A stretch of 64,000 nucleotides of DNA. Origin: Arcuatula senhousia. Taxonomy: Eukaryota > Mollusca > Bivalvia > Mytilida > Mytilidae. Below the pieces are notes generated by a model. That model did not search any database, had not been told where the DNA came from, and was given only the letters and a program-made list of their open reading frames with translations. Location: the NCBI GenBank assembly GCA_963971305.1, contig OZ020308.1:31339275-31403274 (forward strand), read 5' to 3'. A program made the translations under genes and the position numbers. Of the stretch, positions 11,990-59,000 are shown piece by piece; position 1 is the first letter of the stretch, and each line of letters starts with the position of its first letter.

Positions 11990-11999
11990 GTTAAAATGT

Positions 12000-24971: not shown

Positions 24972-25561
24972 ATATGAGTAAGTATAAGTATAATTTATTA
25001 CACGAAATCATGGGCCCTCGAAAGAGCATATATAAATACATAATTCGTACATGAAAAATAATAATCTGACAATAATAATGGAAATAAAATAAACAAATTA
25101 GAAAACAAACAATAATAACACATGCAGCATGACTCGTGACGATTCATAATCTACTAACAGTCTCTCGTATTTGAAAACATTTTTGGATATAAGATGCTAA
25201 CATATTGTATATATTCTCGTTTTCACAAGATAACAAACAGATAAATTTGTTAGTCACGTCTAAGTGTTGAAAGTTTGAGAAAAGTTTTTCTACTTCACTG
25301 AACAGATTTGCCCGCTCTACAGTGTACGAGGGACAGTGCATAAGAAAATGTATCTCGTTTTCGATTTCCTATGTATTACAAAGTTTGCAAAATCGATTAT
25401 TTTTGTTTATATTTAAATACCTGTCTTTCTCTATCGCTAATTTATGAGCACTTATTCTAAACTGTGTCAGACACTTCCTTGTAGAGAAAGATTTTTATAC
25501 AGTGCAAATAAGGTTCTCGTTTGAAAGATTCTTTGAATCGACAATACGTTCTTAATTTTCC

Positions 25562-25857
25562 GGCACCAACACTTTTGAGTTGGAGAAAACATCAAAGCTT
25601 TAAATTATCTGTCTGAATTTCAAAATTGTCTAAACCCTAAGGTTCTTCCTACCCCAGACATAGGTTGATTATCTTAGTAATAACTTTGTTCCCCAGTTCG
25701 GTATTTTTGGTTTTACTGTTTTATGCCCTTCATATTCATTAGTGTTTGGCATTTTCAATATTTTTGGTAGAGCGCCTCTGATAAGTCTTGAATAGACGAA
25801 ACGCGCGTCGGGCGTGGCAAAATTTACTGTCTGGAACTTTGTTGTAATTTGTTTTCC
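25562..25857 (+). mobile_element. Retrozyme fragment inserted in the LINE fragment
   Basis: Near-identical to the repeat split around 36086-36139 and 41390-41640: GGCACCAACACTTTTGAGTT, CTAAACCCTAAGGTTCTTCC, GTAGAGCGCCTCTGAT, then CTGTCTGGAACTTTGTTGT. TTTTCC occurs at both edges (25556-25561 and 25852-25857), a possible 6-bp target duplication, and LINE-coding sequence resumes on either side. The 5' part of the monomer is missing. Confidence 0.8.
25772..25815 (+). ncRNA. Hammerhead ribozyme copy with a core change
   Basis: Stem I GCGCCT / GGGCGT, core CTGATAA in place of CTGATGA, stem II GTC/GAC with loop TTGAATA, GAAA, two-base-pair stem III with GCGC loop, cleavage triplet GTC (C at 25809). 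The G8-to-A change hits an invariant catalytic base, so this copy should not cleave. Confidence 0.8.
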
Positions 25858-30006: not shown

Positions 30007-30745
30007 TTACGAGTTTTAAATCTCCTTAGAACTTGATCATCTTAATTAATGACTCTCCTCATTACAATGAATCTCCTTAGAACTTGACCATCTTAATCAA
30101 TGCCCTTTCCTCATTACAATGATTCTCTTGAGAACTTGACCATCTTAATCAATGCCTCTCCTCATTACAATGATTCTCCTGAGAACTTGACCATCTTAAT
30201 CAATGCCTCTCCTCATTACAATGATTCTCCTGAGAACTTGACCATCTTAATCAATGCCTCTCCTCATTACAATGATTCTCCTTAGAACTTGACCATCTTA
30301 ATCGATGCCTCTCCTCATTACAATGATTCTCCTTAGAACTTGATCATCTTAATTAATGACTCTCCTCATTACAATGAATCTCATTAGAACTTGACCATCT
30401 TAATCAATGCCCTTTCCTCATTACAATGATTCTCTTGAGAACTTGACCATCTTAATCAATGCCTCTCCTCATTACAATGATTCTCCTGAGAACTTGACCA
30501 TCTTAATCAATGCCTCTCCTCATTACAATGATTCTCCTGAGAACTTGACCATCTTAATCAATGCCTCTCCTCATTACAATGATTCTCCTTAGAACTTGAC
30601 CATCTTAATCGATGCCTCTCCTCATTACAATGATTCTCCTTAGAACTTGACCATCTTAATCAATGCCTCTCCTCATTACAATGATTCTCCTGAGAACTTG
30701 ACCATCTTAATCAATGCCTCTCCTCATTACAATGGAAACTTTTAA
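30007..30745 (+). repeat. 51-bp minisatellite in intron 2
   Basis: About 14 copies of a 51-bp unit with ACTTGACCATCTTAATCAAT and CTCCTCATTACAATGATTCT. The block 30061-30360 recurs 307 bp later, so a higher-order duplication is present. Because 51 is a multiple of three, the array is open in frame (ASPHYNDSPENLTILIN repeated), but the flanking exons join perfectly without it. It ends about 45 bp before the acceptor at 30791. Confidence 0.9.
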
Positions 30746-30791
30746 GGCTATTGGCTCACATTTATATTAATCTTTCATATTATATTTTCAG

Positions 30792-32360
30792 ACAATCCAG
30801 TGATTATAAGTGGAGAGAAATTTATGGTGATAGATCCTTTTCATACAGTTAAAACTAAGAACCTGGTTGTTCTAAAAGAACTTAGATCTTTCAAATTAAA
30901 GAAAATACAGACAGAGGGAACTCGAGAATCCCAGGTTATTTCTGCTGCTATTGATGCATTTGGATTCGACCACAAATCATTCAAAGGAGACAAAGAATAC
31001 AAAGGAACCTTGTTTTGGTTTTCCCTTAGACAGAGGGAAAGTGAATTATCAAAAACGATATATTCAGAAGAAAGAGTAGAGATGTTATTTAAATCTTTTG
31101 TAAGAGATGGGCCTTACAGTCTACTATTCCTTAAGTCCTTGGAAAAAATAGAGCTATATGATGGAACAAGACATGAGCACTACAGCAGTATAGAAATGAA
31201 AGGGACTGATGCCAAGTACTATGAAGAAAGGAAAAAGTTTAGCATGGAATTGAAAGAGTTGAAGAATGATTTGCCCAGGGACACAATTACATCAAGATAT
31301 GAAGCAGTTATCTCAGTAAATGGCACAAAAGAGACATTTTGGGTTGTAAATTCACTCTTTGGCAGGAATGCCCTTTCAGATGAGTTAGCTGCACTTATGA
31401 CGGGGACAGATGGCAAGACATCAAGAAGCCCATACACAGGAATGGCATATTGTTGTAACAGTGAAAGTGAACAGAAAAGACCTGGTCATGTGTTTGTTTT
31501 CCTGCCATTGCCAGTTACAGATCATAGTATGACTGGCCTCCCATTCCATGTCAATGGGTTTTTTGAACTGGAGCAGAATAGGAGACATTTAAAAGAAGCA
31601 GAATCAAGCAGTGAATCCAAAGATGAGGCCATATCATGGAATGAAGGAATGATTCAAGAACTGTTGTCTGAAACTTTTCGTCACTTAATGCACAATTTAA
31701 AGGAAGAATCTATTGAGGCTGATTACCCTACTCGAATGGTTCAAAATGTGTACGATGCTATTCCTGTCCCTGATCAAGTTTTGTCTTGCTGGAAACTGAT
31801 GCTGCAAAGAATCTACAAAATTTTCTTAGAAGGTGATTTTTTCTTTACAAATCAAGATGGAGGAAAATGGATAACTTTTGATCAATCATTGTTAGCTGTT
31901 TTTGATGATGAAGAAACTTCAAAAGATGTACAAACAACAGTTAAGGAATTTCTATTAGATGTTGGAACAAGCTTGGTGGAGGTACCTGAAAACATTTTGA
32001 AGATTTTAAAGTTTATGGAACATAAACCGGAAGCAATTTCTCCCAACAGGATCATAGAGAAATTAAAATGTTCCAACTGCTGGATAGATTACCCAATAGA
32101 TAAAAAGCTTCATTTGCTAGAATTCATTTAACATCATGACAACTTGGCAGAGTTGAAGAACATTAAACTGTTGCCTTTGAAAAATGGATTGTTTACATCA
32201 TTTAATGAGCACGAAAGTCACATTATGGATCAGGAAGACATGGTTTTCATTATAGAGGACAAACTATCTAATTTGTTACCAGGATTAGAATCCAAGTTCG
32301 TTTCCAAGCTGAAGTTGCCACAGATGGTGTATGACAGACTAGAGATGATGGCACATGAAG
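30792..32360 (+). CDS. Sacsin-like gene, exon 3 (rest of first module), in-frame TAA
   Basis: The acceptor TATTTTCAG at 30783-30791 completes a Gly-to-Asp joined codon. The reading NPVIISGEKFMVIDPFHTVK is followed by LFWFSLRQRESEL, HVFVFLPLPVTDHS and LPFHVNGFFELEQNRRHL. FLPLP and H-V-N-G-F-F are conserved in sacsin internal repeats. Near the end LLEFI is followed by TAA (32129-32131), then the same frame continues HHDNLAELKNIKLLPLKNGL to LEMMAHEG, ending at donor AAG/GTTAGT (phase 1). So one codon (probably Leu TTA) has become a stop without any shift. Either the allele is null or the base is wrong. Expected length without the stop is 523 codons. Confidence 0.88.
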
Positions 32361-35225: not shown

Positions 35226-36756
35226 CAATGCTAAATACTTAAGAACCACGAATTTAAGAATCCACAAACCTATCAATTTTCATCAAACCACGAAATTGAT
35301 ACCCATGAAAATAAATGAATCCACAATATGTCTCCCAAACGAAGTTTAGAGACATGTTGTTTTTGCTCAGTTCTTATTATTCTTCTTCTTCTTATTATTT
35401 TTTTTGTCTCACCTGCGAGACTTAGGTATGGTGATTCCGGCGGCGGCGGGGCGGCATCCACAATTGTGAAAGTTTTTTGCTCAAGTCTGTTTTATGTGAA
35501 CATGTTATAGGACACCATTGATATTTGGCGTGCAGCTGCACTAGCATCAGTACAGATCAATTTCAAGAGGATTTGAGCTGTATGTCCCTGCAATCGTGGT
35601 CTACTGACTTTTAGATTTTACACTGTTTTTGCCATGTTAACCTTTTTTTTTTAAGTCTGTTTAACATGAAGCAGTTATAGTACACCATTAATATTTGGTG
35701 TGCAGTTGCATTAGCATCAGTACAGATCAATTCAAGAGGATTTAGGCTGTATGATCCTGCAGTTACGGTCTACTGACTTTGAGATTTTACACTGATTTGG
35801 CCAATGTTAACCTTTTTTCTTAAGTCTGTTTTACATGAAACAGTTATAGTATAACATTGATATTTGGTGTGCAGTTGCAGTAGCATCATTACAAATCAAT
35901 TCCAAGAGGATTTTAACTGTATGCTCCTGCAGTCAGGGTCTACTGACTTTGAGATTGTACACTGATTTTGCCATGTTAACCTTTTTTCGTAGCAAAATTG
36001 ATTGTCTGGAACTTTGTTGTCATTTGTATTTCGAACACACGTGAAGGTTAGCACTGCTGGTGGAGTTTAAATTCCCCGAGGTTAGCCCGCTCCGGCACCA
36101 ACACTTTTGAGTTGGAGAATACATCAAAGCTTTAAATTAGGTATCAGGACACTTCGGTACCTGGTCACCTCGGTACCTAGACACTTCGGTACTGGCTTAG
36201 ACATTTCGGTACTCGGTACTGGACAGTTCGGTACTAGGTATTGGACACTTCGGTACCGACAAAAAAAATGAATATTGCAACATTGGATAGTAATTTAATA
36301 ATAATGAGTGTTAAATTTACGATTTTTATTGGTATTTTAAGGGTAATGAATGGTAAATTGAAAACTAGCGACGTACACAAAGAAGTATGATATGTATGAC
36401 TATGATGGAAGTGAATATTTATGTTAGCTAGAATTAGTTTTTCAACTAGATTTTCTAGATCGGCTCATGTAAATATTTTTTTAATGATTGGTCGTTTATC
36501 TTTTTTTTTAATTCTGGTAACTAAATGAATATAATTCTGCTAATTGTGACCCCTATCATATGGCTTCTAATCTGAGACAATAATTAAATTAAATTTGAAA
36601 TTGGTCAATTTCCTGTTTTAACAGGACGCCCGCTGGCCGATAACTCTCGATAAGGAAATTTGTTTATTGTGACAAATATCAGTCTGTTCGCGTGGTGTTT
36701 GATTTTTTATTTTTCACCATCATTCAGATTTTATTAAATTACAAACAAAATAATAA

Positions 36757-38529
36757 ATAAAACGCTTCGAAAATGATACCAAACAATGTACGAGAAATAA
36801 TATATTCCATTGGTTAAGTAGTAAACGATTAGATATCATTTGTTTACAGGAAACTCACTGTACACAAAATGAAGAATTCCTCTGGGCGCGAGAATGGAAA
36901 GACGTAAATGGGGGATTAAGTATTTGGAACCCGGGTTCTAGTGAATCACGGGGTGTTGCAATTCTAATAAATAAAAACTTTAAACATGATATTGTAGAAA
37001 AACATCGTGATGACGATGGTCGACTACTGAATCTCGAATTATCATCATGCGATACCAAGATTTTGGTAAATGCGATTTACGCACCGAACAACGCAGAGCG
37101 TAGAATACAATTTTTTAAAGATATCAATTTAAGTGATAATGAAGCTGATATATTTAATTTGATTTTAGGCGATTTTAATTGTGCTTTGGACAGAAACCTA
37201 GACCGACATCCAATGCACAAAAGGGACGATCTGGGTTTGGTCGAAATCACTCGAATGATTATTAGTCAAGGACTATGTGACATTTGGCGTGATCTGCACC
37301 CAAACACAAATCGTTACACATTTAAAAGGAATAATTCAAAATCAAGAATTGATTACATCCTAGTAAGCAAATCGTTAAGTAGTAATGTATCTAAAGTCAA
37401 AATATTACACTTTCCATTTAGTGATCATGATCTAGTTACAGCCAATATTAAAATGAATAAAATTGAAAGAGGCCCAGGAGTCTGGGTAATGAATGAAAAC
37501 ACTATTAAAAGCGATGAATTCAAAAATAGTTTTAATATTTTATGGGCCAAAATGGTTAATAAAATAAACGAATATCCAAACCTTAGATTATGGTGGGATA
37601 TTACAAAAAGTAACATAAAAGCATTATGTATTGAAATCTCAACCATGCTCAATGTCAATAATAAACGTTTAAAAGAAATGGAAAACAAACTTGAGGATTT
37701 AAAATTAAAATCCGAAACACGGCCAAATGCTCAACTCATAACACATTTAGAAAATGAAATTAAAAACGTGTATGAAAAGAAGGCAGACGCTGCAAGATTA
37801 CGATCTAAAAGTAAATGGTTTGAAGAGGGAGAAAAATCTTCCAGTTACTTTTTTCAACTCGAAAAAAATAACGGTCAAGAAAAATTATGGAATAAAATTA
37901 AATGTGAAGATGGGTCCATAAAATCAGATATAGACTCTATTTTAAAGGAGCAAATATTTTTTTATGAGAATCTTTTTTCTTCAGAAGGTTGGGATGAAGA
38001 AAAAGGGAGGTCGTTATTATCACATGTCAATAATCATTTGGATGGGGATGACAAAATGATGTTGGAATCTGAAATAACGGACGAAGAAATCGAAAATTCG
38101 GTTAAAGTACTCAAACCAAATAAATCTCCAGGAGAGGATGGCATTATTTCCTCCTTTTATCAATTATATTGGGAGAAAATAAAATATCACTTCTCCTTAG
38201 TGGTCAAAGAAATATTTCAATCAAGTACCCTATGTGAAAGCCAAAATAGGGGAATTATTACACTTATTTACAAAGCAGGAGAAAGGGAATTACTAAAAAA
38301 TTGGAGACCCTTAACAGTACTAAATTGTGATTATAAAATAGTTGCTAAGATATTGTCTTGTCGATTAAAAGATGTTCTGCCGAAGATAATACATTCTGAC
38401 CAGAAAGGATTTGTCAAAGGTAGAAATATCTCCGAAGCGAATCGGCTGTTACAAGATATTATTAGTTATGTTGATAAGGAAGACGAAGAAGGTGTCATTG
38501 TTTTTTTAGATCAGCAAAAAAGCATTTGA
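36757..38529 (+). pseudogene. LINE endonuclease and RT N-terminal half
   Basis: The frame is open from 36757, before the first candidate start at 37063. It reads IFHWLSSKRLDIICLQETHC (Glu of the endonuclease metal site), GVAILINKNF, NAIYAPN, LILGDFNCALDR, RIDYILVS and FSDHDLV (Ser-Asp-His). A Lys-rich linker follows, then the RT start KPNKSPGEDGIISSFYQLYW, RPLTVLNCDYKIVAKILSCR, HSDQKGFVKGRNISE and VIVFLD. The frame breaks inside RT motif A: QQKSI-stop in place of Q-KAFDRMEW, caused by one extra A in the run at 38516-38521. L1/Tx1-type order. Confidence 0.9.
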
Positions 38530-38533
38530 TCGA

Positions 38534-40534
38534 ATGGAATGGGGGTGGTTAAACGAATTCATGAAAACATTTAACTTTGGGGAAAACTTTCGTGGGTGGA
38601 TTAACATGCTACTTAAAGAGGCAAAAACTTGTATTAAGACTAATGGCTATTTATCTAAGTATATTTCCATCACACGGTCGGCCCGACAGGGCTGTCCAAT
38701 AGCCCCTCTTTTGTACGTTTTACAAGCTGAGCCACTGGCTTGCTCGATACGAGCTTGTCCTGATATAGAAGGAATCAGATTGCCCGGAAATATTGAAACG
38801 AAACTTAGTTTATTCGCAGATGACACTCAACTTCTTGCGCGAAACGAGACATCCGTCAAAAAGGCCTTTGAAATATTGGAGACCTACGAAGGCGCGTCTG
38901 GCGCAAAAATAAATTATGACAAAACAAAAGGGTTGTTCATAGGTCGGCTTAAGGGTAGCAATCCAAGGTTTAAAACAATTAAATGGATAAAAACAAACGT
39001 AAAAACACTAGGAGTGCATCATGGCTATGAAATTAACGATGAACTCATTTGGAGACCAAAAATAAATAAAATTAAAAGCTGTTTGCAAATCTGGAAAACT
39101 AGAAATCTTACCCTAGAAGGGAAAACATTAATAATAAAAAACTTTATTGTTTCCCTAATAGGGTATGAAATTGAAATGCGTGGAATTCCAGATATCTATC
39201 TTAAAGAAATCAACCAACTAATATGGGGATTTATATGGGACAACAAAGTTCCACAATTAAGCAGACAAGTGTGCTGTATGAAATCAAAAGAAGGGGGGTT
39301 TAATATGATAAATATATATTCATTTGTTAAAAGTCGACAAATAAAATTTCTATACAAACTTATACACTCAGAACTCGAATCTTGGAATGCCTTGGGTAAA
39401 CATTGGTTAAAACAATATGACGAGATAAGCGGCCAAGAATTTTTCTTATGCATATGTTCCAACTTAAGTGCACTAAATATTGGACAAATCCCTTCATATT
39501 ACAAAGCCGCTTTAAACTCACTGTCCGAGCTCCGAGCAAAATATAAACCAACTAATATGAATGAAGTGCTAAATACAAATATATTTTGTAATAATGATAT
39601 TCAATTTGCTAATAGACCATTATTTTTTCGGTCCTTTCTTAGAAGCAATATATTTAAAATTAGGGATATTTGGAGCAGTATGGAAAATGATTTTAGGAAT
39701 TGTAATACGATCTATAACGCTTTAAACGATAAACGTAACTGCATAGCCGAGTTTTCTAAAATCAAAGCCGCTATACCCAAAGAATATATTCAAATACTTC
39801 GAGGCACAAATATAAATGTCCTTCGCTATAAGCCATTACCAATCAATCTGAAGGAATTAGAATTTTATGATAAATTAGAAAAAATGATAACGTTTGACAA
39901 ATTGAAATCAAAAGAAATTCAAATCTTATTTAACGAGAAAGCAAAACCAAATTGTGAAACTAAATGGGAAAGAAAATATGGAAATGGGATACCATGGCCT
40001 AACATCTGGGCAGTCATAAACAAAATAAAAATAAAAAATAAAATAAAAGAATTTCATTTTAAATCAGTACACAATATCGTTTTTACTGAATTCAGACTCA
40101 ATGAATTCGGAATGTCCCAAACGAATGGACTATGTCACTTTTGTAAACACCACCTTGAAACTCAGATCCATTTATTTTACAATTGTAAGAAGGTATATCC
40201 CGTTATACAATATCTACAAAGTCTTTTTACAGAAATTCTAGATTTGGCAGATATTACTCTTGTGGAACAAAATATTATTTTAGGACTCAACGGAAATTCC
40301 GAAATACAAGCCTATTTAGGTAATGCAATTATTATGATATCAAAGTGGATTATTTGGAAAACGAGAAACAAAATAAAATTCGAAAATAAAACTTTTTCAG
40401 CCATCTCAGTTATAAACCTTATTAAAATAGAATTAAAGGATAATTTTGATCTTTTGATAAATTGTCGTATTAAAATAAGCAGAGAAATAGAAATAGCTAT
40501 ACGCCGATTACTATCATCAAATTCAGCGCAATAA
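38534..40534 (+). pseudogene. LINE RT C-terminal half and zinc-binding domain
   Basis: Continues the element one base out of phase (its frame in fact includes KKAFDR just upstream). It reads SARQGCPIAPLLYVLQAEPL (motif B) and LSLFADDTQLLA (motif C, FADD), then KTLGVHHGYEIND, a long RT connection domain, and GLCHFCKHHLETQIHLFYNC with the C-x2-C...H-x4-C zinc-binding pattern. It ends SNSAQ-TAA. The whole 666-codon frame is clean, so the single A-run shift is the only coding lesion seen in this LINE. Minus frames at 39196-39551 are shadows. Confidence 0.9.
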
Positions 40535-40820
40535 TTTTTTTGTTACATGATTATTATCACACATGAACAAGTTGTAGTTTAATATATCTATATAACCATA
40601 GATATCTATGATATAACTATATCTATTATATAATATACTTACATTTCTATGATAATATATCCTTACATTAAAAATGAACATGAGTTAAGCACGTGCGCAC
40701 ACATGTATGATAAGGTTGAATGATTTTCAGATGTATTACATTATTTATTTTGAGGTTTATTATTGGACCATTTCTCTCCCGCTTATCCATGGGCGTGGCT
40801 GAGTTAGTGTAACACATGGC

Positions 40821-40852
40821 CCCTCAGTGCGCTTTCCCTGGGCCACTGAGGG
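40821..40852 (+). promoter_or_regulatory. LINE 3' UTR stem-loop
   Basis: CCCTCAGTG pairs perfectly with CACTGAGGG across a 14-nt loop, about 40 nt before the poly(A) tail. Stem-loops at this position are recognised by the RT in some LINEs; for this element that is an inference. Confidence 0.6.
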
Positions 40853-41553
40853 AAATGTAACAGGATGAAATAAAATAAATAATTGTATATTTAAAAAAAA
40901 AAAAAAAAAAAAAAAAGAAATTCAGCTATCTAAAGATACTTTTACATTTGAATTTGCTGTAGAAACACCAAAGTTTAATCGAGAGGATCCTAGATCTTCA
41001 TAAGAACGACACTGTTATTTTCAGCCATTTCATATGTTTTATAGGATGATTCGATTCTCTTCGTTATGATTTTCTCAGTTCTAATTGAGAAATAAAAATT
41101 ACAAGTGTTTAATGGGAGTAATTAATTGCATATTAAAAATCATCAAAAATAATTACAATTATCAAAGTAGCCGACAACCAACTTCCACTAAGTAATCAAA
41201 CTTATTATATTGAATTTTATGACTGAAAATATCATTTATTTATAAAAAATAATGAAATAAAAATTTTATTTTTCAAGTACCGAAATGACTAGTACCGAGT
41301 ACCGAGGTGACTAGTACCGAGTACCGAAGTGTCTTATTTAATCGGTACCGAGGTGACCAGGTACCGAGGTGACTAGGATTCTTAAATTATCCGTCTAAAT
41401 TTCAAAATTGTCTAAACCCTAAGGTTCTTCCTACCCCAGACATAGGTTGAATATCTTAGTAATAATTTGGGTCCCCAGTTTGGTATTTTTGGTTATACTG
41501 TTCTATGCTCTTCATATTCATACAGTGTTTGGCATTTTCAATATTTTGGTAGA

Positions 41554-41597
41554 GCGCCTCTGATGAGTCTTGAATAGACGAAACGCGCGTCAGGCGT
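41554..41597 (+). ncRNA. Type I hammerhead ribozyme, intact core
   Basis: Stem I GCGCCT (41554-41559) pairs AGGCGT (41592-41597); core CTGATGA 41560-41566; stem II GTC/GAC with loop TTGAATA; GAAA at 41580-41583; two-base-pair stem III closed by GCGC; cleavage triplet GTC with C at 41591. All invariant core positions are present. The very short stem III is typical of hammerheads in Penelope-like elements and retrozymes, where it processes multimeric RNA into monomers. Confidence 0.88.
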
Positions 41598-41935
41598 AGC
41601 AAAATTTATTGTCTGGAACTTTGTTGTCATTTGTATTCCTAAGTCTGTTTAACATGAAGCAGTAACAGTACACCATTGATATTTGATGTGCGGTTGTATT
41701 AGCATCACTACAAATCAATTCCAAGAGGATTTTATCTGTATGCTCCTGTAGTCACGGTCTACTGACTTTGAAATTATATTTTCATTTGGCGTAATGTGGA
41801 TGATGTAGAAATTTTTAACCATGGAAGTAAGATGTTTATATTACTTCTATGTTTTTAACATTGTGATCTTTAATTTTTTATTTTCTTTATATTGTGTCCA
41901 ATTGCAACAGGCGAGACATATCTCTGGGTTAACTG

Positions 41936-42289
41936 TTTATTCTTCTTTCCGGGCGCGTTTTTCTACATTTGTCTGTGGCGTTGCTCAGAAACCAATAGAC
42001 GGAATAGCTTGATATCATATGACTTGATAGGCCCATACTCCTAGATGATCCTCCCGGAAAAAAAATTAATATGTTGTTGGGAAGGAGGAAAAATATATTT
42101 TGGGGGTCTCAAAAAGGGCTGGGGTTTTGCAAAATTTAACTATAGAAGTCTATGGGAAAGTGATACATGTATAACTTGATAATGTGCCATCTAAAACTTG
42201 GAAATACTGTGTTACCTCAGATATTTAAGTTTTCATACCTGGCCACATTTAGTGGTGAGGTATTATGTAATACCATCTGCTTCATTGTC
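41936..42289. other. Intron sequence, nothing recognised
   Basis: Includes a run of A/T and G-rich sequence but no gene or clear repeat. Confidence 0.5.
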
Positions 42290-43370
42290 TAAAGGGGGGG
42301 TCATACCCCTGCCCCTCATATGACAAAATATTAAATATTCTGAAAACCATTGAGATCCCCACCCTATAACCATATATATTATTACTCCTTATGATAAGAC
42401 AAATCATTTAGTAGTATTGGGGGTCTGAGGGGGGGGTCATGCCCCACCCCCCTCAAATGACAAAATACTAAAATTCTAAAAACCATTGAGATCCTCACCC
42501 TATAACCATGCATAATTTTACTCCTTATGATAAGACAAATCATTTAGTAGTATTGGGGGTCTGAGGGGGGGGTCATGCCCCATCCCCCTCAAATGACAAA
42601 ATACTAAAATTCTGAAAACCATTGAGATCCTCACCCTATAACCATACATAATTTTACTCCTTATGATAAGACAAATCATTTGGTACCATAGGGGGTCTGA
42701 GGGGGGGGTCATGTTCCACCCTTTTAATGACAAAATACTAAATATTCTAAAAACTATTGAGATCCCCACCCTATAACCATATATATTTATACCCCTTATG
42801 ATAAGACGAATTATTTGGCACCATAGGGGGTCTGAGGGGGTGGTCATGTCCGACCGCCTCAAATGACAAAATACTAAATATCCTGAAAACCATTGAGATC
42901 CCCACCCTACAACCATATATATTATTACTCCTTATGATAAGACGAATCATTTGGTACCATAGGAGGTCTGAGCGGGGGGGTCATGCCTAACCCCCTATAA
43001 TGACAAAATACTAGATATTCTGAAAACCATTGAGATCCCCACCCTGTAACCATATATATTATTATTCCTTATGATAAGACCAATCATTTGGTATCAAAGG
43101 GGGTCTGAGAAGGTCACGCCCCACCCCCCTCAAATGACTAAGTACTTAATATTATGAAAACCATTGAGATCCCCACCCTTTATCCATATATATTATTACT
43201 CATTATGATAAGACAAATCATTTTGTACCATATGATGGTCTGAGGGGGGGGGGTCATGCCCCACCTCCTTAAATGACAAAATACTAAATATTCTGAAAAC
43301 CATTGAGATCCCCACCCTATAGTCATATATATTATTACTCCTTATGATAAGACGAATCATTTTTTTACCA
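42290..43370. repeat. ~136-bp tandem array before the giant exon
   Basis: About eight units with AACCATTGAGATCCCCACCC, TATAACCATATATATTATTA, CTTATGATAAGACAAATCAT and a GGGGGTCTGAGGGGGGGGTC G-run. Spacing between AACCATTGAG copies is 133-137 bp. Minus-strand frames at 42518-42916 and 43196-43417 are repeat translations. The array ends about 420 bp before the acceptor. Confidence 0.9.
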
Positions 43371-43787
43371 TATGAGGGAGGTAAATAACTTGTGTTTATA
43401 GGGGAACCCTTGCCCAAATTTTTCCATGAGATTAATGAGGCTTCGTTTAGAAGACATTCGAAACTGCATCCAGTTTCAATTACACCTTGTCATTGAAAAG
43501 GATTTGTCATTTTATATTTTGTGAATAAGTTCAGAGAAACAAATTTTACACATTTCTAAAAGTTTCTTAACATTTGAACAAATTTAAAAAATCCTGATCA
43601 AAGAATGATAAATTAAGTTGATTTATACGTATCAGAAGTTAACATTCATTTATAGTTTACCAATAGTATAGTGTTAATGTAACAGGATATAATAATTACA
43701 AAGACACGTCCAAAACCAAGCTGTACCCTCCACATGACAAGGGCTCAACTGATTGTCTGTTTCTGATTTTAAGTCTTTTAATTGCAG
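43371..43787. other. Intron 3 end
   Basis: Unique AT-rich sequence and the acceptor, a pyrimidine tract CTTTTAATTGCAG. Confidence 0.6.
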
Positions 43788-46700
43788 GTATGTTTCAACT
43801 TACAATGATGGGACCACAATATCTTCCAACATTATTAAAAAACCTATTTCGAGCCAGTTTTACTGAAGTTGACGGCAATGGATTTGTTTCTGCTCATAAA
43901 GACCATGGTAAAGAGTGGATAGAAGCACTTTGGAAAGAGGTAGCAGATGGTGAATATCAAAACTTGTCTGAATTTGAAGAAGTTCCTCTCATTCCTTATA
44001 TCCCTCCTAATGGTGAGTCTGACAATGAACATTTGCATTTCTTTAAATTGAAAGGAAATTATATGTTAGCTCACACAGAAGACAATGAATTGAACCTTCC
44101 TGGATGTATTAGCTTTATTCTTAAGCTAATTGATGTACGCCTATTTTTTCCACATCAAATCAAATTTCCTGATGGTCTTGTCATAGGAAAGTACATACTT
44201 AGACCCACACCAGTCAATGTTTTCAGCTTATTGAAGGAAGCCTTTTTGTCTGTAGATGTTGAGGAGCTTGCTGAAAGGATAGAAGAAGAGTGTACGCCTG
44301 ATGAGATGATTTCCATAGGGCAATACTTTTTAGAGCATTTGATTGACATTCCAAGCGAAATCCATAAACTTTTATGGCATTTGAAAATCTTCCAACAGTC
44401 AAGAGATCAGATAGTATCTGAATTGGTGTCTTTAGCTGAAAACCAGAATATGGTTGATCACTTTGCTTTTCCAAAGACCATTAGGTACCCACAAAAGTTT
44501 CTAAAGCATAAATTTGTTGATCTGGCAAAACTGTTGGGCGCAACACTGATAGGAGAAAGCAAGTGCGTCGAGGATACTCTAAGGCTGATGAACGACGAAG
44601 AAAACGATTATTCAGAAGACGAAAAGGTACAGATGATGAAGTACCTACAAGAAAAATCTTATGTTACCAAAGAGGACACAATACTTAACCTAGCACGATC
44701 TGTGTTGTTCATACCATCATCTGATAGGAATGTACATCATGCTGGTCATCTGTTCAACCCAAGATCAAAGACACTGACTGATATGTTTGATGGACAAACT
44801 GGTATATTTCCAGATGAAAAGTTTCTTATAAACAATGGTTTTGATATAGCGTTTCTAGAAAAGCTCGGACTTAAAGGTGAAGATGAACTTTGTGCTGATG
44901 ATATGATCAATATTGCAAAGCATATACATAATGCACAAACAAGTGAAGGAGGAGAAATACAATGCCTTAGAAAAGTCAATGCCTTCATTACTTTTATGAA
45001 AAGTCATACAGAGGTAATTTGTGATAGAGCTCTAGAAGAGATATCAGAGTTAAATTGGGTTCTTAGCAGTGAAAGCAGACCAGATGGATACCCAGAGAAC
45101 CTCAAGTGGTGGAAAAGAGATCGATTGTTTACTCCGAACGAGGTGAAAAGTATTGAACTCAAACATCTGATTGGATCCGTCAGTCCATTAGTTGATTCCG
45201 ACCTGTATGCAGATAAGGTTAAGGCGTATTTTAAATGGAATGACATTTCAGATGAGAAACAGATTCTAGAGCACTTCCAAAATGTTATAGACTCTTTTCA
45301 ACCAAGTCAAAATGCTGAATACATGCTAATCGTCAGAGATATCTTAAAGTTTTGCCACAAGAGAGACAAAAGAAATGACCATGATCAGTTGTTTGAATGC
45401 TTGAAAACTATGTGCTGCATCCCAACAAACAAAAATAAGCTGGAATATCCTGAGAAAGTTGTTAAGCAAATCGATCCAAGTCAAATAAATTATAACCTTG
45501 AACCATACATATATGAAATGGCTACAGAAGTCTTACCATTTTCCTTAACATTGATTGACCTTGGTATGAAGGAGAAAATCAACTTTGACATTCTTAAAGA
45601 TCTCCTCAAAAGAATCAAAGAGAAGTATGAAGCAGAAGAGGAGGAAGATCAAGGCTCCAGAGATGTTGCTTCAGACAGAAAAACTGTTGCAAATGTATTG
45701 CGAACAATTGTAGAAATGAAGCTAGACAAAACGCTTTTGACAGATATGCTTGTACCTATCATGTCAGAAAACAAAGATAGAATAGAATTTGAAATTGTAG
45801 AGAAGTGTACATATGCGCCAGGAAAGAGTGATTTGTCCTTTACATTAGCCATTCAAGATGATGACCAAAGTGAGAGTGATAAAATCGTTTACATTCATAA
45901 CACTATAAAAGACATTGCACAAGAGCTTGGAGTTGCATCGATTACAAAACGTTTTATGATGGATCAAAACACAAAACCAATGGCTTGGGGCCAAGAAGAA
46001 AAGCTAACTTTAAGAATATCTGGTCTACTAGACAGCTACACAGATGGACTTGCAGTTCCAAAAGAGCTCATTCAGAATGCTGACGATGCAGGTGCTTCAA
46101 AGGTGTGTTTTCTTTATGACGAAAGAGACAATTTTGATGCAAGAGACAATTTATTTGACCCTGGTATGGCAGAATGCCAAGGACCTGCTTTATGGGTGTA
46201 CAATGACGCAGTTTTTGAAGAAAAAGATTTTAAAAACATTATTGCACTTGGTGGAAAAACAAAACTTGAAGACACTTCTAAGATTGGAAAATTTGTTCTA
46301 GGTTTTTGCTCAGTGTACAACCTTACAGATGTTCCTAGCTTTATAAGCAAAAACACACTAGTGATACTTGACCCACACCTCGATCATCTTGGAGAAGCCG
46401 CTATTGGCACAAATCCAGGCCTACGGGTACCTCTAACAAGTAGCTGTAAAAAGAAGTTTTCCGATCAATTTAAACCCTTTAATAATGTGTTTGGATGCAA
46501 TCTAAGTCAGAAGGATGAATATCGGGCCACGTTGTTTAGACTTCCACTGAGGACAAGCAAACAGACGGGTAGAAGTGAAATTAAATCTCTCCATTACACC
46601 AAAAGGGAAGTAGTGGAGTTATTACAGAAGTTTATCGAAGCAGCTGGAAATCTTTTGCTTTTCACACAGAGTGTTACAGAAGTTAGTATTTACCATCTTG

Positions 46701-49042
46701 ATTCTAGAGGCCAAAACCCTGATAAAGACATGGAGCTCATTTATAAAGTGGTAAAGGAAGTTACAAATGGTTCAAAAAGTGACACTTATGTTCTGAGAAA
46801 AGTTGCTGAGACTGTTAAATCCAGTGATCAGGTTACACGAAATGAAGTCCCTCTTCCAATTCAGAATGTAAAGATACAACTTGAGCTATTTTCACCTGCT
46901 GAAAATTTATTCAAGGAGATAAAAGCTTTACCCATATTCCAGAATGTAACAGATTGGCTTGTTTCATGGGGAACTGGTAGAGAGACATTTGAATTGGCTC
47001 AGAAGTTGAAGTCTCAAGGAGCAATACCAGTAGGCACAGTGGCTGCACCAGTACAACTTCGTGGTACTGAATTGATAGATTTCTTAAAACTGGAAGACTT
47101 ACCATTAGGATTCTATAAGGAAAGTAGAATCTTCTGTTTCTTGCCACTGCCGATGAAAACTAGAATACTTAATGTTCATATTAACGGTTGCTTCATGGTT
47201 GAGCAGGACCGTAAGAGCATTATTAGATATAATCAAGATAGCAAATCAAATGATGGTCATCTTTGGAACAGTAGGATGTTAACCGACGTGATACAAAGTG
47301 CTTTTCTGAACTTGATGACGTACATTGCTGGAAAGAATGGGGACCAGATATGTAGAACTGAGTATTGGAAACTTTGGCCATTATTCATTGACCAGGATGA
47401 AATATTTCCTCTTTCAGAATCTTTCTACAAAAGAGTTATGACAGAGAATGATACTCTATTATATCGCCATAATCCATTTGAAAACAAATCAGAAGCAAGT
47501 TCATTTAAAGGTTCAGTCTTTCTAGACCCTAGATTTAGACATTCTAATGCATGTGGGAGTGTAGCATTCGACTGTCTACTTTATTTTCACAACAAAGACC
47601 AGTCATTAGGTGGAGATGGTAGAAAACTTATGGATATGCCTTTAGACAAATATACCACATTTCTGGAGATTGACGAGGAGCTTATGGCAAGACAGGTGAT
47701 TTCAAAGAAGACATTTTTCAAAGATTACTTTTTTCCAAGACAAGATGATGAGTATTGGAAGCAATCTGATGCTACTACAAAGATGTACGCTCTGCTTGAA
47801 GAAGCATTGGAGGATGAACAGCTACACACATTGGTATCGGAGAACCATTGCATGCCAGTTAAAGTTTCAAAACAACTACGAAAACCTTGCGAATTGGTAA
47901 GAGAAGGTGGAGATGTTAGTACATTGTTTAATGAAGAAGATGGTAGATTTCTGGATCCAAGATTCATCAAGTATGAACATAAACTTTTAAATATGGGCAT
48001 GATGGACAAAATTATAGCGTCAGGTATGCTATTAGAGAGAGCAGCCTCTATCAATACTCTAAGTGCTGAATATGGCATGATAAGATCAAGAGCCATCATA
48101 TCTTACTTGAATGAAAACATTTGTATACACGCTGACGTTGCTTCATCTTTGACCGATATTACCTTTCTACCAGTAATGCAGAGACATCCTGATTGGCCAC
48201 TCACTTGGAAAGGAGAAGAACTTCCATCAAAGTTTTTAGAACCTAAATGCTTGTTTTCCTGTGAAACCAAAAACATTGTTGGGTCAGTTGCATATGTAGT
48301 AGATGCACAATTGACAGACGAAGTGACTAAATGTATTAGGCTAAAAACTGTTACGACAGAAATCCTTGTGGAACAGATGGAAGCAATTGCTAAAGCTAAT
48401 CTGGATTCATCGGGTGGCTTGAAAGGCATTTGTGAACAGTTATACGAGAAATTAAACTGCTGTTTGAGCAACGCCACATACAGTACTAATACAAAATCTC
48501 GGCTAAGCAAGCTTGTTGACTGCAAAGTGGTAATGATAGACAAAATAATGGCAAAGCCCTGTCAGGTTTCCTTTCATCTAAACGGGACATGCAGTCCTTA
48601 TTTATTTCGTTTACCAACGGAGCTGATACAGTACAACTACTTATGGAACTATACAGGAATCCACGCCACTTTTCCAGGCAAAACATTCTACGAGGTCATA
48701 CAGAAAATTGAAAAAGATAAAAGAAAGTTGGTTTTAGAGGAAAATGAAATTCAAAGTTTCATCAACATATTGACAAATTTGTCTAGATGTGACATTGATG
48801 AGGATATAAAGGCTAATCTTTTTGTCCCAGACAACAAAGGTGTGCTACAACACATTGACAGTGTTTGCTATGATGATCCTGATTTCCAATATAATGATGA
48901 TGACGTTTTCATAACACATGGACAAGTTACTATGGGATTGATTGAAAAACTTGGCATCAAATCTAAAAAGCATCTCTATCTCTCTAGATTTTCTGATTCA
49001 ATTCCCTTTGGGCAAAAAGAGAAACTGGTGACAAGATTGAAA
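43788..49042 (+). CDS. Sacsin-like gene, giant exon part 1 (end of module 1, module 2, start of module 3)
   Basis: Acceptor GCAG at 43784-43787; GT completes the Gly codon from 32360 and the frame is open for 1751 codons. Residues 1-730 finish module 1. Module 2 begins AWGQEEKLTLRISGLLDSYT (45986) and KELIQNADDAGASKVCFLYD (46061), then GPALWVYNDAVFEEKDF, SKIGKFVLGFCSVYNLTDVP, FLPLPMKTRILNVHINGCF and EQDRKSI. The lid reads GKFVLGF where modules 1 and 3 have a Gly before the second hydrophobic residue. Module 3 starts IPFGQKEKLVTRLK (49003). There the frame breaks: AAA-GTG in place of a Ser-containing VLDAYP run, one A short at 49040-49042. No introns are seen, like the huge terminal exon of vertebrate SACS. 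Confidence 0.93.
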
Positions 49043-52000
49043 GTGTATTGGATGCTTACCCAAAAGACCATTCTGTTTTAAATGAACTTCTACAAAATGC
49101 AGACGATGCTGGCGCAACTGAAGTTCACTTTGTTTTGGATCTTAGACAGCTGGAAACAAAACAAATTTTTGACAAGAAATGGGCACCTCTCCAAGGACCT
49201 TCTTTATGCATTTTCAATGACGCTTGCTTTACAGAGCAGGATCTGAAAGGTATTCAGAATTTAGGAGAAGGAAGTAAGTCAAAAGATCCTACAAAAACCG
49301 GACAATTTGGGGTTGGATTCAATGCTGTTTACCATTTGACTGATGCACCATCGTTCATGACGATAGGAGAGGAGTGTCCAGGCGGTGGCACTTTTTGTGC
49401 ATTTGATCCACATTGTTCATTTTTATCAGTTGCACAACCAAATGCACCTGGGATGAGACTCAATCTTGAGATATTAAAGGCCAAGTACGGTCAAGTGTAT
49501 GATGGATACTTGCAAGATATCATTCCGTCAGAGAAAGGCACATGGTTTCGACTCCCTCTGAGAACAGAAGAACTGGCTAAGAAGTCAGAAATAAGCAAAT
49601 CAGTTTGTGATGAAATTGTTGTTCAGAAATTGCTAGATGAAATGAAAAACCAGATGCAAACTAGCTTGTTGTTTATCTCTAATGTTAGACAAATAAGCAT
49701 ATCTTCTGTACCGCAAGGATCAAACACGTTGTCGAAAACGTATAGTGTCACACGTTCGATCCCAGATGAGTGGGCTTCAAATTACGAGAATTTTTCAAAA
49801 TCAGTTGCTTTACAATTGAAAAAAATGAAAAATGAGGGGGCAAAATTAGATGAATTGAATTTTAATGAGACAAGGTATGTTGCAGTGATAGATGATAATT
49901 ATGGCAAAAAAGACTATTGGGCAATCGTCAAGGGCTTTGGCTTCAGTCAAACAGAACAAATACCACCTATTATAATAGATCAAGCATCTAGAAAAGAAAT
50001 AGGGTTTCAACCAACTGCAGGAACTGCAATGCATATTCTGTCAAAAGGGGACCATCAGACAGAACACAATACACATATGGGAAAAGGAAATGAAAACACC
50101 GTAAATGAAAAACGCATTGAACATGGTGGACTTGCACCCTTCCAGACTAAGGCTAGAATGGAGCAACGTGAAACTGCAACCTACGAGTTGGAGCATGGCA
50201 CAAGAATTGGGCTTAGTTCAAGATCAAATTTCAAGACCGACAATAAAAGAAGCATAGGATATAGTGGAAATGCTTTTTGCTTCTTACCATTACCTATCAA
50301 GACCGGCCTTCCAGTTCATATCAACGGTCACTTTTCTGTATTTGCCAATCGGAATGCTCTCTTCAGTGAGAATATAGGAACAGATATTCGTGCTGTATGG
50401 AACAATACTTTATTACAAGATACAGTCGCACACACATATGCTAGCTGTATAGAGTATTCAAAGGAAGTCATTGTGAAGATTTGTAAACCAATTGGTAAAC
50501 TTTCAAAGCTTGACAAATATTTTGAAAAATTTCCAGATTTCACAAAAGTCAACGGTGAATATTATAGAAAGTTGGTAAAGGCAGTGTACTGGCAACTTTA
50601 TGACAGACAACTAGCCGTTTTCCCTATATGTCCAGAATTCTCTCAAAGAACACATGATTGGAAAAATGTTCATCATCAATCTAACTTAGAAAACACAATA
50701 GTGTGGCAACCTTTGAAATCCGCATCAAGTAGATTTGACGTGTGCTTTGACAAGTTGTCATCATGGTATGACGATGACGATGGTCTTACTACCCTTGGAC
50801 TTTCAACAGAATCAAGGCTCGCTAAATTGAAGCGCCGTAAAGAAGAGGAAAATACATTAAGGCACATTTTAGTAGCTATAGGAATAAAGCTGACTTGTGC
50901 TCCGATGTGGATATTTGACAGCCTTTGTTTGACCTGGCCGTCTAAACAAAGCTCGTCATCTCTCCAATGTTCTAATGATACTGGAATTTTGCAGTGTACA
51001 ACAAGCCTGGCCACTATCCTTTCCTATGGCATTAGACACGAATTGTCAGATTTCATATTTGGCTTTTTGAAGTCTTGGAATGAACAAATTGAAGATGGAT
51101 GCCTTATCAGGGAAATTGATGTACCTATTGAAAAGTCGCTTTTCAAATCAATAAGCAACCTATCAACATTTTTAAAGTTTTGCATGACTCTATCAACAGA
51201 ATCATCACATTATGAATCTCTCCCAATCTTGGTCGACAATTTAAATCAACTGAAATGTTTTACATCAACATTTATACTGTCTCCTTATTGCAGTTTGTTA
51301 AAAAAGTCCGGAGACAAGTTTGTTCATGAGCAGCTGGTGGAAAACTTACATAGATTTAAAAAATACTTTGACCATTTGTCCATATCCAAATTTTGTAGTC
51401 TTTTGCCAAGTACTGTTAATGAGTCAATGATGAAGATCGATGGTCCAGTGGAATTAAATAAAGATGCACCCAGTCGCTTATGGTTTATCCAGTTATGGTC
51501 ATACCTTGAGACTGTGGATATTGATTCAGAGATTGAGAAATGGTGTTTCTTTCCCATTGCATCAAAAGATAAATTGGAGCTGGTTTCTTTCGACAAGGCA
51601 TATATAGCAGTTGACTACACTAGTTTTGATATTAATCAGCCAGGTGATAAAGAAATAGTGGCGGTACTAACGAAGATTAAAATTCCAGCACCAGCCAAGA
51701 ACATAGTTGGACTTTCAAAACATATATGTCAGTATGCCTCCACGAAAAAACGTCCAGATAGATTAGCTAGATGTTTGAAATACCACGAACAGCTATTGAA
51801 TGCCTGCGAATTGTCCGAAAAGGAGTGTAACGCATTGTTGACGTATTTCTCGACCTGGATAGAAGAAACAGAAAATGTTAGCGACATTTGTGATCCATTG
51901 AAGCAAGTAGAGATCTTTCCATCTGTATTTGGAGGTCGATCTGCATTGAATAACACTGATAACCATTTAGTTGTTGATGTAACGAACTGTAACTTTGAAC

Positions 52001-54882
52001 CAGCGGGTTTAAAAGAGGCATCGTTAGCTGCAAATTTGGTTCTTATTAAACATAATAGTTTCCATGTGGAGTTGTATAAACAGTTGCAGTTGCCAGTTTG
52101 TAAGGAACATGTGAACGAACACAAGCTATTGGAGTTGTATACTAACTTTGTACTACCAAGGTTTGCCCTTATTCCAAAAAAATGTCGAATCAACCATTTG
52201 CAGTTCATTAAAGATTATCTGTTGAGGAATGCTATAATCCATCAGAAATTAAAGGCTTGTCGTGTCATTCCCTCAGGGCAACATTTGAAAAAAGCAAATG
52301 AATTTTACAGCCCTCACATGAGAATTTTTAGGAGTATGTGTATGTCTTCAGAGATGCCACCTGCACCATTTAATAGCCTGTTCTGGAAAGAATTTATGGA
52401 AAAGGCTGGGATGATCTGCTCATTAAGTCAAGAAAAGTTCTTTCAATTTGCATTGCAAATAGAAGCTGAAGATGGAGATGAGGATCAGTCTATAGAATTA
52501 GTGAAATATCTCTTCAACGAAGATGACTGGCATAAAGATGATTCATTTTTACGTAGAGTAAGAGAAATCAAATTTGTTAGATGTTCTTCCATACTTTGTG
52601 AACTAGACTGCATTAGTCCACAATTTTTGAGAAATACATTGATTTCATTTCGAAACGCAATACCTTACAGTAAGCATCAACTTGCTTGGACAATGGCGCC
52701 TATTTTACCAAAATATGCATCTCCAGGCAAAACAAGTCTCAGTGAAAAGCTTGGAGTACAGCAAGAGCCTAATCTTACAACTTTTATCTCGCATGTTCAC
52801 AAAGTGTGCCACTCTCTCCAGCACCATCCAAATATGCATTTGGAATGTTTGTATGATCTTCTGAAAACTTTCTACAATTATATGAATGAAAATGGACGTG
52901 ACTTGGAACAACTACGAGTAAGACTTGCTGAGACACCGTTCATATACGTAGAAAAACACAGATTGTTTTGCAAACCAAGTGATGTAGTAATTCAGGCCCA
53001 AGACTACGATTTGATAGAACCATATTTTGTAAAATGTTCGGAAAAGTACGGTTTTTACTTCGACCTATTCAGGTCGCTTGGCGTTAAAGATGGACCTGAT
53101 ATTGACAATTACCTAGGAGTCCTGTTAAAGATAAAAGAAATAGTTGGATCAAGAAGTCTTAAGCCAGAATATTTAACGACAGTTGAAAAGACAGTACAGA
53201 AAGTCCTTTTTCTTTTACAATACATGTCAGAAAAAGCACAGCCAGTTCTCCGAGAATTTTATCTGTTGTCTGATGATTCGAAGCTTTACCTGTCCTCAGA
53301 TTTGGTTTTGAGAGATCGTGTTAAATTTGAAAGGAGACTGGAGAATCAACAGGCGATTAAGTTTGTGGCCGATATGTCTCAGTTTGTTGAAAAGGGCATT
53401 GATGTACAACGCTGTTTAAAACAACTTCCAAATGAGATGCAGCCTAATTATCTTAGCCATCTTGTATCCGAACAACTTTATGAAAGTAATAACTACTTGC
53501 AAACAGATGATTTTAATCAGTTGAACTCGTTTTTATGTAGCGATTTGTTCATTACTGCAATGCTAAGAATTGGTCAAACTTGTTTTGAAAATGATGAAAG
53601 AAATCAGTCATCTTTAAATATGATAGAAACTAGTTTAAGAACATTTAAAACACAACCCGTTGAGCTACTACAGACAATCTTGGTATGTAAGAACATCCCA
53701 GTACAGTCCAGCATCAGAAGTCAAATCTATTTCCTTCATCTAGAAGAAGGAAGGGCAACGTTATTTTTAGCCTATGATTCAACAGACTTTTCTTCCTGGC
53801 TTAAAAAACGGATTTATGCAATTGCTCATAGCATAGTTAGCCTATGTCCACGTTCTATGAGAAAAATGAAGGATACAGTTCAAATCCTAATCTCCCTTTA
53901 CACAAGCACTGAAGATGAAATTAATGAACTTTTGAATAATCTCGAGATAGTTGAAATGGATTACAAGCCAGCATCATCCTCTTGGGTTCCCCTTCCAGGC
54001 ACCCCAGTGCCACAAGATCTGCTTGATCTTTTATGTCAGGATATTATTGAATTTAAAGCAGGCGATTATGCCGTGTATGAGGTATTTGATAGTGCTAATG
54101 AAGCGATACTTCGAGATCGACCTGATTCTAGAATGTACATTTATGTTCAGATTAAAAAGAAGTGCGATAATACCTTCTTTCCAACCTATGAGGTTGATGT
54201 TGGAGATGGGCAAAAGAAAGTGGTTCTGTCGTTTGATCTCTACCAAGTTGTCCATCAAGAATATGTACACACTGATGTGGAAACATACACCGACGGTCAT
54301 GCGGGATTCAATGTTGGAAAAAGAAACGCCATTATAAAAGGAATGGAAGAATCCCTTATTCGTTCTTACCGGATGGGAGAGAAGCCGTTTCGTAAGGTGT
54401 ATAAACGAATGCTTCTGAAGTGGCATCCCGACAAAAACCCAGAAAATCTTGCTTTTGCTACAGAATTAACACAACACATTGTTAGTTTTGCTCGGAAACT
54501 TCTTAATGGGGAAATAAAAATTGATGACATCCCTGAATATCGACAGTGGTACAGAAATTCGAATCAAGCTTATAATGCATGGGATGAACACATAAATCGT
54601 GGAAGTGCACACAATCAATCGTTCACTTTTGATGCCAACGGGTTTGCAGATGAACTTGGAAGACGACGAGCCGGAAGGAGTGGCGGCTATAGTCAGGAAT
54701 ACAGTGGCTATGGTCAGGAACATTATAATTATTATAGACAGGAACAATACCAACCTAACCCTCAGCCGCAAATGGGACGAATTTGGTTAAAACAGGCTAA
54801 AAGCGATATCATTGCTGCAGGATCTTTACTGAATATTGCAGACCAGCATTCCTTCAATTGGGTGTGTGTTCTTAGTCAGCAA
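49043..54882 (+). CDS. Sacsin-like gene, giant exon part 2 (module 3, J domain, start of HEPN)
   Basis: After the shift the frame reads VLDAYPKDHSVLNELLQNAD, DAGATEVHFVL, GPSLCIFNDACFTEQDLKGI, KTGQFGVGFNAVYHLTDAPS, AFCFLPLPIKTGLPVHINGH and FSVFANRNALF: a full third ATPase module. A long helical region follows. The J domain carries RKVYKRMLLKWHPDKNP with HPD at 54424-54432 (Hsp70-stimulating). A Gly/Tyr/Gln-rich linker (~54655-54770) leads to GRIWLKQAKSDIIAAGSLLN and FNWVCVLSQQ, the first helices of a HEPN domain. A donor CAA/GTATGT at 54883 is chosen because the open frame beyond it (to 55026) loses HEPN character. Minus-strand open frames are shadows. Confidence 0.93.
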
Positions 54883-55435
54883 GTATGTATACTTTTTTCA
54901 ATTTTGAATGATTGTTTGCCCTGTCTACAAAAGTTTCCTCAAAAGGAACAAACGGGTGTTTTAACAAAACTGCTGTTAAACCTTTATTTTATTCGACATT
55001 TGTCATCCTTTCTTTTGTATTTCTAAATAATTTCAAGAAGCAAAGAGGCACCAATGGGGCATTCAAAATCTGCTCAAGCCAAAGAAAAATCTGTTAGCTC
55101 AACAGGACCGATCGAAAATCCATGTGAGTTTATATCATTACTTGGCGTTCGTCGTCGTCATTTGTTAACATAATATCGAAAATCTTCACTGTAACATGTG
55201 AAACTGCGCAGAATTAAATCCTTGGGGTGTCCTGCACACGTGTTTCGATTTTTGTTTGGTCCGTCAAAAGCATGACCGCCGTTCCCAAGGGATATGACTA
55301 CTGTTTTTGGCTAGTAAATCAAGTGACAGAGAAAGTCTGATCCATCCTTTCGTCTTCAGCATCATAGGCCGTGCAAAAGTCTCCATATAGTCGAAGTTGT
55401 CAGATGACAAAGACCTCTTCTTCATAATCTAATTA
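54883..55435. other. Presumed intron or 3' flank of the sacsin-like gene
   Basis: No HEPN continuation found. It contains a scrap GCAAAGAGGCACCAATGGGG, also at 19266 and inverted at 55770, and pieces of the intronic repeat family (TGGGGTGTCCTGCACACG). Confidence 0.55.
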
Positions 55436-58716: not shown

Positions 58717-59000
58717 GGATCTTTTCAATCTGATTAAAATCGGATCTATCAAGTGTTCCTTCTGTCACTGCAAGGTAGATCTGAAGACATCCCATTCTAC
58801 TTTCTGTTCTGATGACCTTTTTCGAAATCCTTTTGATTTATCATAAGAAATTATGCTTCCAAATCTTAAAAGCTGTGATTTGATTGGCTAATTAAAAAGG
58901 TCATCAGAACAGAAAGTAGAATGGGATGTTTTCAGATCTACCATGCAGTGACAGTCGAAAACAACTGAAAGAACTGATTTAAATCAGATTAGATAATTTT
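58717..59000. repeat. Foldback element
   Basis: Arms 58764-58822 and 58894-58952 are inverted over 59 bp with few mismatches (GTCACTGCAAGGTAGATCTG; CATCCCATTCTACTTTCTGT). Weaker inverted similarity extends about 40 bp outward on both sides. The plus frame at 58601-58846 runs through one arm and is rejected. Confidence 0.8.

Follow-up and report, generated by a model that had tools for sequence, protein, structure and literature searches.

Metazoan non-LTR retrozymes are the closest described systems to the element considered here. For the mussel, self-cleavage and the presence of circular RNA in tissue have been reported (Cervera and de la Pena, 2020; PMC7229834), and the available text of a review describes metazoan retrozymes as lacking any conserved motif from which their helper could be identified (PMC7761336). 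These elements have a type I hammerhead ribozyme, a non-coding unit of about 170-400 nt with a GC content below about 45-50%, dimeric to multimeric tandem copies and no LTR, PBS or PPT, and their target duplications, when there are any, exceed 4 bp.

Penelope-like elements are known for their variable 5’ ends. The protein of one of them, Poseidon of Anolis, has been described as initiating reverse transcription in vitro at an internal site that lies downstream of the hammerhead (PMC11167929). In the available text of that study, the ribozyme cuts at ORF position +26 and reverse transcription begins mainly at 111-118, which by our own arithmetic is 85-92 nt past the cut; a second start lies 30-40 nt nearer the cut, and hammerhead mutants are still inserted in vitro (PMC11167929).

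The window is the whole stretch of DNA that was analysed, a 64-kb piece (C6:31339275-31403274), and the genome searched comprises 1.04 Gb. Positions in the retrozyme unit are numbered from u1 = 41592, the first base past the predicted cut of a hammerhead ribozyme. The features concerned are the following.

25559-25855, plus strand: second retrozyme copy, u107-u46, 5’ truncated, with a hammerhead at 25772-25815
35473-35987, plus strand: three ~170-bp satellite units flanking the retrozyme on the left
35988-36139, plus strand: left part of the retrozyme, u4-u155 by alignment to the unit, closing with the 8-bp target duplication TTAAATTA
35988-36030, plus strand: 43-bp direct repeat, copy 1 (u4-u46), 42/43 identical to 41595-41637
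36140-41389, no strand assigned: insertion within the retrozyme, 5,250 bp, with inverted GGTACCGA-rich ends, including the second target-duplication copy (41382-41389)
36757-40534, plus strand: LINE inside the insertion (PF03372, PF00078; zf-RVT under the cut-off)
41390-41637, plus strand: right part of the retrozyme, beginning at u156, spanning the ribozyme and running into the next lap as far as u46
41554-41597, plus strand: type I hammerhead ribozyme with an intact core (Rfam RF00163, Hammerhead_1, 36.5 bits)
41595-41637, plus strand: 43-bp direct repeat, copy 2, its right end being the usual 3’ end of the family
41638-41790, plus strand: one unit of the same ~170-bp satellite, right of the retrozyme

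The covariance search proposed as a check in the first-pass annotation gave a match to the type I hammerhead above the gathering threshold (36.5 bits against 34, E 1.6e-5), the only hammerhead above the cut-off in the window. CTGATGA, GAAA and GTC are all present, together with a 6-bp stem I (one G-U pair), stem II and a short stem III, which bears out the core bases and the three stems described there. Cleavage is predicted after 41591 (41591/41592 = u357/u1), from the usual place of the cut within a hammerhead. Minimum free energy folding of the isolated 44-nt hammerhead did not produce the hammerhead fold (z -0.46), a result that says little about a ribozyme with tertiary contacts. With two mismatches tolerated at most, the genome contains 24,495 matches to a 30-nt hammerhead pattern and none to its reversed control; the hammerhead occurs more often than expected by chance. 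In the second retrozyme copy of the window, CTGATAA replaces CTGATGA and the hammerhead (25772-25815) scores 27.1 bits, under the cut-off.

Without its insert, the retrozyme measures 400 nt, a full 357-nt monomer extended by 43 nt into a second lap (1.12 units). It had been described as dimeric, which is incorrect: it has a single ribozyme, with none upstream of the left end, so this copy would be unable to release a monomer by itself. The monomer length of ~357 nt given in the same annotation is exact, provided that 36140-41389 is left out. The 43-bp direct repeat said to flank the element exists, but its two copies are separated by 5,607 bp (~5.6 kb) across the insertion; the first copy does begin about 3 nt past the cut, the left end of the retrozyme being u4. 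The copies lie far apart because a 5,250-bp LINE-bearing element has split the retrozyme. This element was inserted later than the retrozyme and has an 8-bp target duplication, TTAAATTA, at 36132-36139 and 41382-41389. The endonuclease-RT open frames of the LINE (36757-38529 and 38510-40534) are in different reading frames, and a run of 24 A is found at 40893-40916; the RT frames in the split region belong to this LINE, which carries Exo_endo_phos. When joined, the satellite flanks of the retrozyme match an intact junction between units in the array, gapless at the join, which places the retrozyme in a T-run of the satellite, with no target duplication.

The unit has a GC content of 40.1% and lacks coding capacity (the longest stop-free run is 56 aa over two laps). 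The call of a retrozyme is upheld by the RF00163 match with its intact type I core, the non-coding 357-nt unit (40% GC), the tandem copies mostly spaced 357-359 nt apart and the presence of about 25,000 units in the genome by 30-mer count; the tandem copies are a property of the family, the window copy amounting to only 1.12 units. The window element belongs to a known kind, the metazoan non-LTR retrozyme, and has thousands of fellow copies. What the first-pass annotation observed is, in sum, partly confirmed, and its interpretation is partly supported.

Several other features were observed in the window. Tandem repeats of 39 bp with the telomere-like word GTTAGGGTTA extend over more than 2 kb at 71-2430, LINE RT and endonuclease frames lie on the minus strand at 8934-12007, and a 51-bp tandem repeat of 14 copies (30021-30734) directly precedes a sacsin-domain frame (30746-32131). 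Downstream of the satellite remnant is a 136-bp tandem repeat of about eight copies (42287-43362), followed by two overlapping very long frames at 43667-55026 with one Pfam sacsin domain apiece. A long palindrome at 58778-58938 scores 60.8 bits against MIR7504 (cut-off 83) and is perhaps a small inverted-repeat transposon.

The ends of retrozyme copies were compared in two samples. The first consists of the loci (L001-L057) holding 62 of the best 64 hammerhead hits, which favour intact ribozymes (C9:52744792 was unfetched and C10:2702133 lay outside its locus edge), of 11 pieces of 10 kb from one fixed coordinate on 11 contigs, and of the window; the unit was aligned to them. The second consists of 33 C1 loci taken in chromosome order by a tail 30-mer, which favours exact tails and short copies. 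They provided 74 5’ ends, 45 from the first sample and 29 from the second, once copies at locus edges (including L074, L079 and L111), first-sample copies with a 3’ end outside u43-u55 and duplicates of one insertion (L028, L056, L057, L040, L113) had been dropped; the 5’ end of the window copy was set by hand to u4, its alignment being split by the inserted element. The counts of 69 3’ ends and of 46 complete copies used below retain the duplicate L040, and that of 46 treats the right half of the window copy as whole.

Most copies end at the same place. Among the 69 3’ ends away from locus edges, 51 are at u43-u55, and 39 of these are at u46-u48 (6 at u46, 12 at u47 and 21 at u48); the other 18 are elsewhere, some of them being alignment breaks, including the split of the window copy itself. 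The sequences place the boundary shared by most sampled copies 46-48 nt downstream of the predicted ribozyme cut. The 5’ ends, by contrast, are scattered round the unit (n = 74; KS test against a uniform distribution, p 0.61), with none at u1-u3 and five no more than 8 nt from the cut, where 3.3 would be expected; the C1 tail-ordered sample taken by itself (n = 29) is non-uniform (KS p 0.03), with a tilt to short copies. Such variable 5’ ends argue against the presence of LTRs in the retrozyme. Insert lengths in the first sample range from 30 to 1,337 nt. Twenty of the 46 complete copies are longer than one unit and 43 are longer than 53 nt, and hence extend across the cut, which indicates that the template RNA was continuous at the predicted cleavage site, either joined or uncut. 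The sequences of the sampled copies show a 3’ end common to most of them, scattered 5’ ends and unbroken copying across the cut. Tandem spacings in the family are mostly 357-359 nt, with a few of 345-377 nt. Two long arrays with mostly 358-nt spacing were observed at C1:16295796-16301930 and C1:24850480-24859101, the first with 18 consecutive exact tails. A preference for AT-rich targets is unsupported, the flanks being 66.7% AT against 66.1% at a distance of 500 nt. Folding suggested a hairpin round the start point; it is broken in many of 34 variants, and its conservation was rejected.

Genome-wide counts of five 30-mer probes (up to two mismatches; reversed controls 0 in all five) reveal the same asymmetry. 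The count rises round the unit, from 13,229 at u49-78 to 16,286 at u171-200, 24,495 at u328-357 and 25,328 at u1-30, with a slight dip at the tail probe u19-48, a variable sequence (23,677), and it then falls by 44% at u48/49 (23,677 to 13,229). At the cut itself there is no jump, the count changing by +3.4% (24,495 to 25,328). The fall at u48/49, with no jump at the cut, argues for copying from a fixed point, through the cut, to a random stop.

Taken as a whole, the locus is probably a 5’-truncated copy of a non-LTR retrozyme, made from an internal start at about u48, most likely by a Penelope-like RT and on a circular template. Transcripts would be cut by the ribozyme and the monomer joined into a circle; the RT would start internally at about u48 and follow the circle over part of a lap, or over several laps, before stopping at random. 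In the window copy, the LINE-bearing element was inserted afterwards, splitting the retrozyme. The broader proposal that animal retrozymes parasitise Penelope-like elements, the hammerhead making the circle and the RT starting about 48 nt past the joined cut and rolling round, is put forward tentatively, its prospects being not quite even. If it is true, the sawtooth in the counts, with a fall at u48/49 and none at the cut, would be the footprint of rolling-circle reverse transcription of a ribozyme-made circular RNA.

A Penelope-like helper is our best guess, and is unproven. The genome contains at least 140 GIY-YIG matches, and the one frame examined in full has RT and GIY-YIG domains. Four Penelope-like families have a hammerhead-like motif according to a CTGANGA...GAAA pattern. 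Compared with one longer reference copy per family (references not counted), their copies stop matching 60-65 nt (3/4), 69-77 nt (3/4), 96-100 nt (2/3) and 64-69 nt (2/4) past the motif cut, i.e. 10 of 15 stop at 60-100 nt and the other five run on to 149-197 nt. The retrozyme 3’ ends at +46 to +48 resemble these ends, which likewise lie tens of nucleotides past a hammerhead cut. One family (L102, L106-L109) has a hammerhead-like motif with a short stem III; two of its copies stop 64-69 nt past the cut and the others reach 174-178 nt or more. Rfam searches at E values up to 10 gave no hammerhead in 14 Penelope-like stretches, which fits the minimal hammerhead variants in print and is no confirmation of the motifs. 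The CTGANGA...GAAA pattern was absent from L100, L101, L123, L124, L125, L127 and L128, with one unconvincing match in L126, and the retrozyme tail had no match in 20 Penelope-like 3’ stretches.

Penelope-like elements also have a characteristic arrangement. Among 133 of the 140 GIY-YIG hits (seven on small contigs were left out), 33 pairs of neighbours lie within 6 kb, 20 of them head-to-head, 13 on the same strand and none tail-to-tail; the head-to-head pairs look like the result of priming on both target strands. Retrozyme pairs within 6 kb, counted by eye among the first 100 hammerheads listed, were head-to-head in two cases and tail-to-tail in one, and the fetched loci contain four and three such pairs, respectively, with no clear bias. 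The very short copies in L073, L087, L032, L048 and L052 have left flanks that by eye bear no relation to one another, and these five thus give no sign of an autonomous element bearing the retrozyme tail.

A LINE could instead be the helper, with target-primed reverse transcription from its endonuclease, and we consider this rather unlikely. It would account for the 5’ truncation, LINEs occur in the window, and 15-bp duplications have been described for Nematostella repeats (PMC4918200). Target duplications of about 22 bp are found in two of the 46 complete copies (L001 and L020, the latter among local repeats), and the mean duplication score is 3.96, against 3.32 in permutations (sd 0.21), falling to about 3.55 without these two. 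However, only these 2 of 46 copies reach a score of 9 (permutation mean 0.15), and among 15 C1 copies, which are 90-98% identical to the unit, there is no clear duplication: none reaches 9 and the mean is 3.87 against 3.63 (sd 0.31). The junctions inspected display no A-rich or repeat tail, and the tail count (23,677) does not exceed that of u1-30 (25,328), which argues against a large class of tail-only copies.

The same ends could be produced from an uncut transcript of a multimeric array, if the helper started at u48 or the transcript ended there; this explanation is unlikely. Arrays of many units exist, such as that with 18 consecutive exact tails at C1:16295796-16301930, and a Penelope-like protein accepts unprocessed RNA in vitro (PMC11167929). 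The laps of single insertions offer evidence on both sides. In 34 insertions near the commonest family sequence, laps differ by 2.6% within one insertion and by 6.6% between insertions, and differences at shared variants make up 160/761 (21%) within inserts against 1,768/3,637 (49%) between them. This likeness fits the repeated copying of one monomer and counts against an array template, although a homogenised source array could look alike; 167/686 within-insert differences are on shared variants, against 9.5% expected for random bases, as an array template would lead one to expect. In the mussel, retrozyme RNA has been reported to be mostly circular (PMC7229834), which speaks against an uncut template and helps the circular template that we infer.

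The ribozyme is less divergent than the body of the unit. Among the copies that were sampled without regard to hammerhead score, namely those of the window, of the fixed-coordinate pieces and of the C1 loci selected by tail, 44 of 1,875 ribozyme sites are changed, against 282 of 5,557 in the body (p 1.5e-7, an optimistic value since the sites are non-independent). This points to selection on the ribozyme in source copies.

The reading of the first-pass annotation was that the insert was a ribozyme-cut monomer whose two ends were set by the cleavage site, the repeat marking the junction of the circle. The start of the window copy at u4, 3 nt past the cut, is in its favour, but it is highly improbable. 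None of the 74 5’ ends is at u1-u3, there is no significant excess near the cut and the shared 3’ end is at u46-u48, so insertion of a cut monomer is not supported as the origin of the ends, and the 43-bp repeat was rejected as a mark of the cleavage junction; the u4 start looks like one random 5’ truncation. A linear u1-u357 monomer primed at u48 would yield at most 48 nt, whereas 43 of 46 copies are longer than 53 nt, and linear templates would run off at u1, with a pile-up of 5’ ends there that is absent. Of the circularised intermediate proposed in that reading, a template joined or uncut at the cut, which 43 of 46 copies cross, stands, and the placing of the ends at the cleavage site falls. 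That the family is a plain satellite spreading at the DNA level by unequal crossing-over or rolling-circle DNA insertion, with an incidental hammerhead, would suit the long tandem arrays of ~358-nt units and is hardly credible given the dispersal of short copies in which one end is usual and the other random, the conservation of the hammerhead above the body and the clean insertion in another satellite.

The interest lies in the anatomy of the family as a whole rather than in the single element of the window. A usual start located 46-48 nt beyond the cut, combined with copying across it, provides a precise test of the identity of the helper RT, and an equally precise one of the circle as template. 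Such a start is not stated in the openly accessible text of PMC7229834, PMC7761336 and PMC4918200, to which this comparison is confined, and a 15-nt piece of the ribozyme had no match in print.

The family is not a plant LTR retrozyme: those have type III hammerheads, LTRs of about 350 bp and 4-bp target duplications, whereas the hammerhead here is of type I, the 5’ ends are variable and there is no such duplication at the window locus. SINEs, like this retrozyme, are short, non-coding and non-autonomous, with a fixed 3’ end and a high copy number; they differ in having no hammerhead, no multi-lap insertions and an A-rich tail. Penelope-like elements encode an RT and a GIY-YIG endonuclease, whereas the retrozyme unit encodes nothing; the retrozyme has an insertion end tens of nucleotides past a hammerhead cut, as they do, and would thus work like them without being a member of the group.

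The family is presumed to be like the mussel retrozymes. In Mytilus, metazoan non-LTR retrozymes form repeats of about 350-390 bp, likewise with a type I hammerhead (Cervera and de la Pena, 2020; PMC7229834). The elements described there share with this family a non-coding, low-GC unit of about 350 nt, thousands of dispersed and tandem copies and the presence of Penelope-like elements in the same genome (PMC7229834). The window copy differs from them in having one ribozyme and in being split, and the family departs from their description, in the available text, in having 3’ ends that are fixed 48 nt beyond the cut and in being apparently copied across it (PMC7229834).
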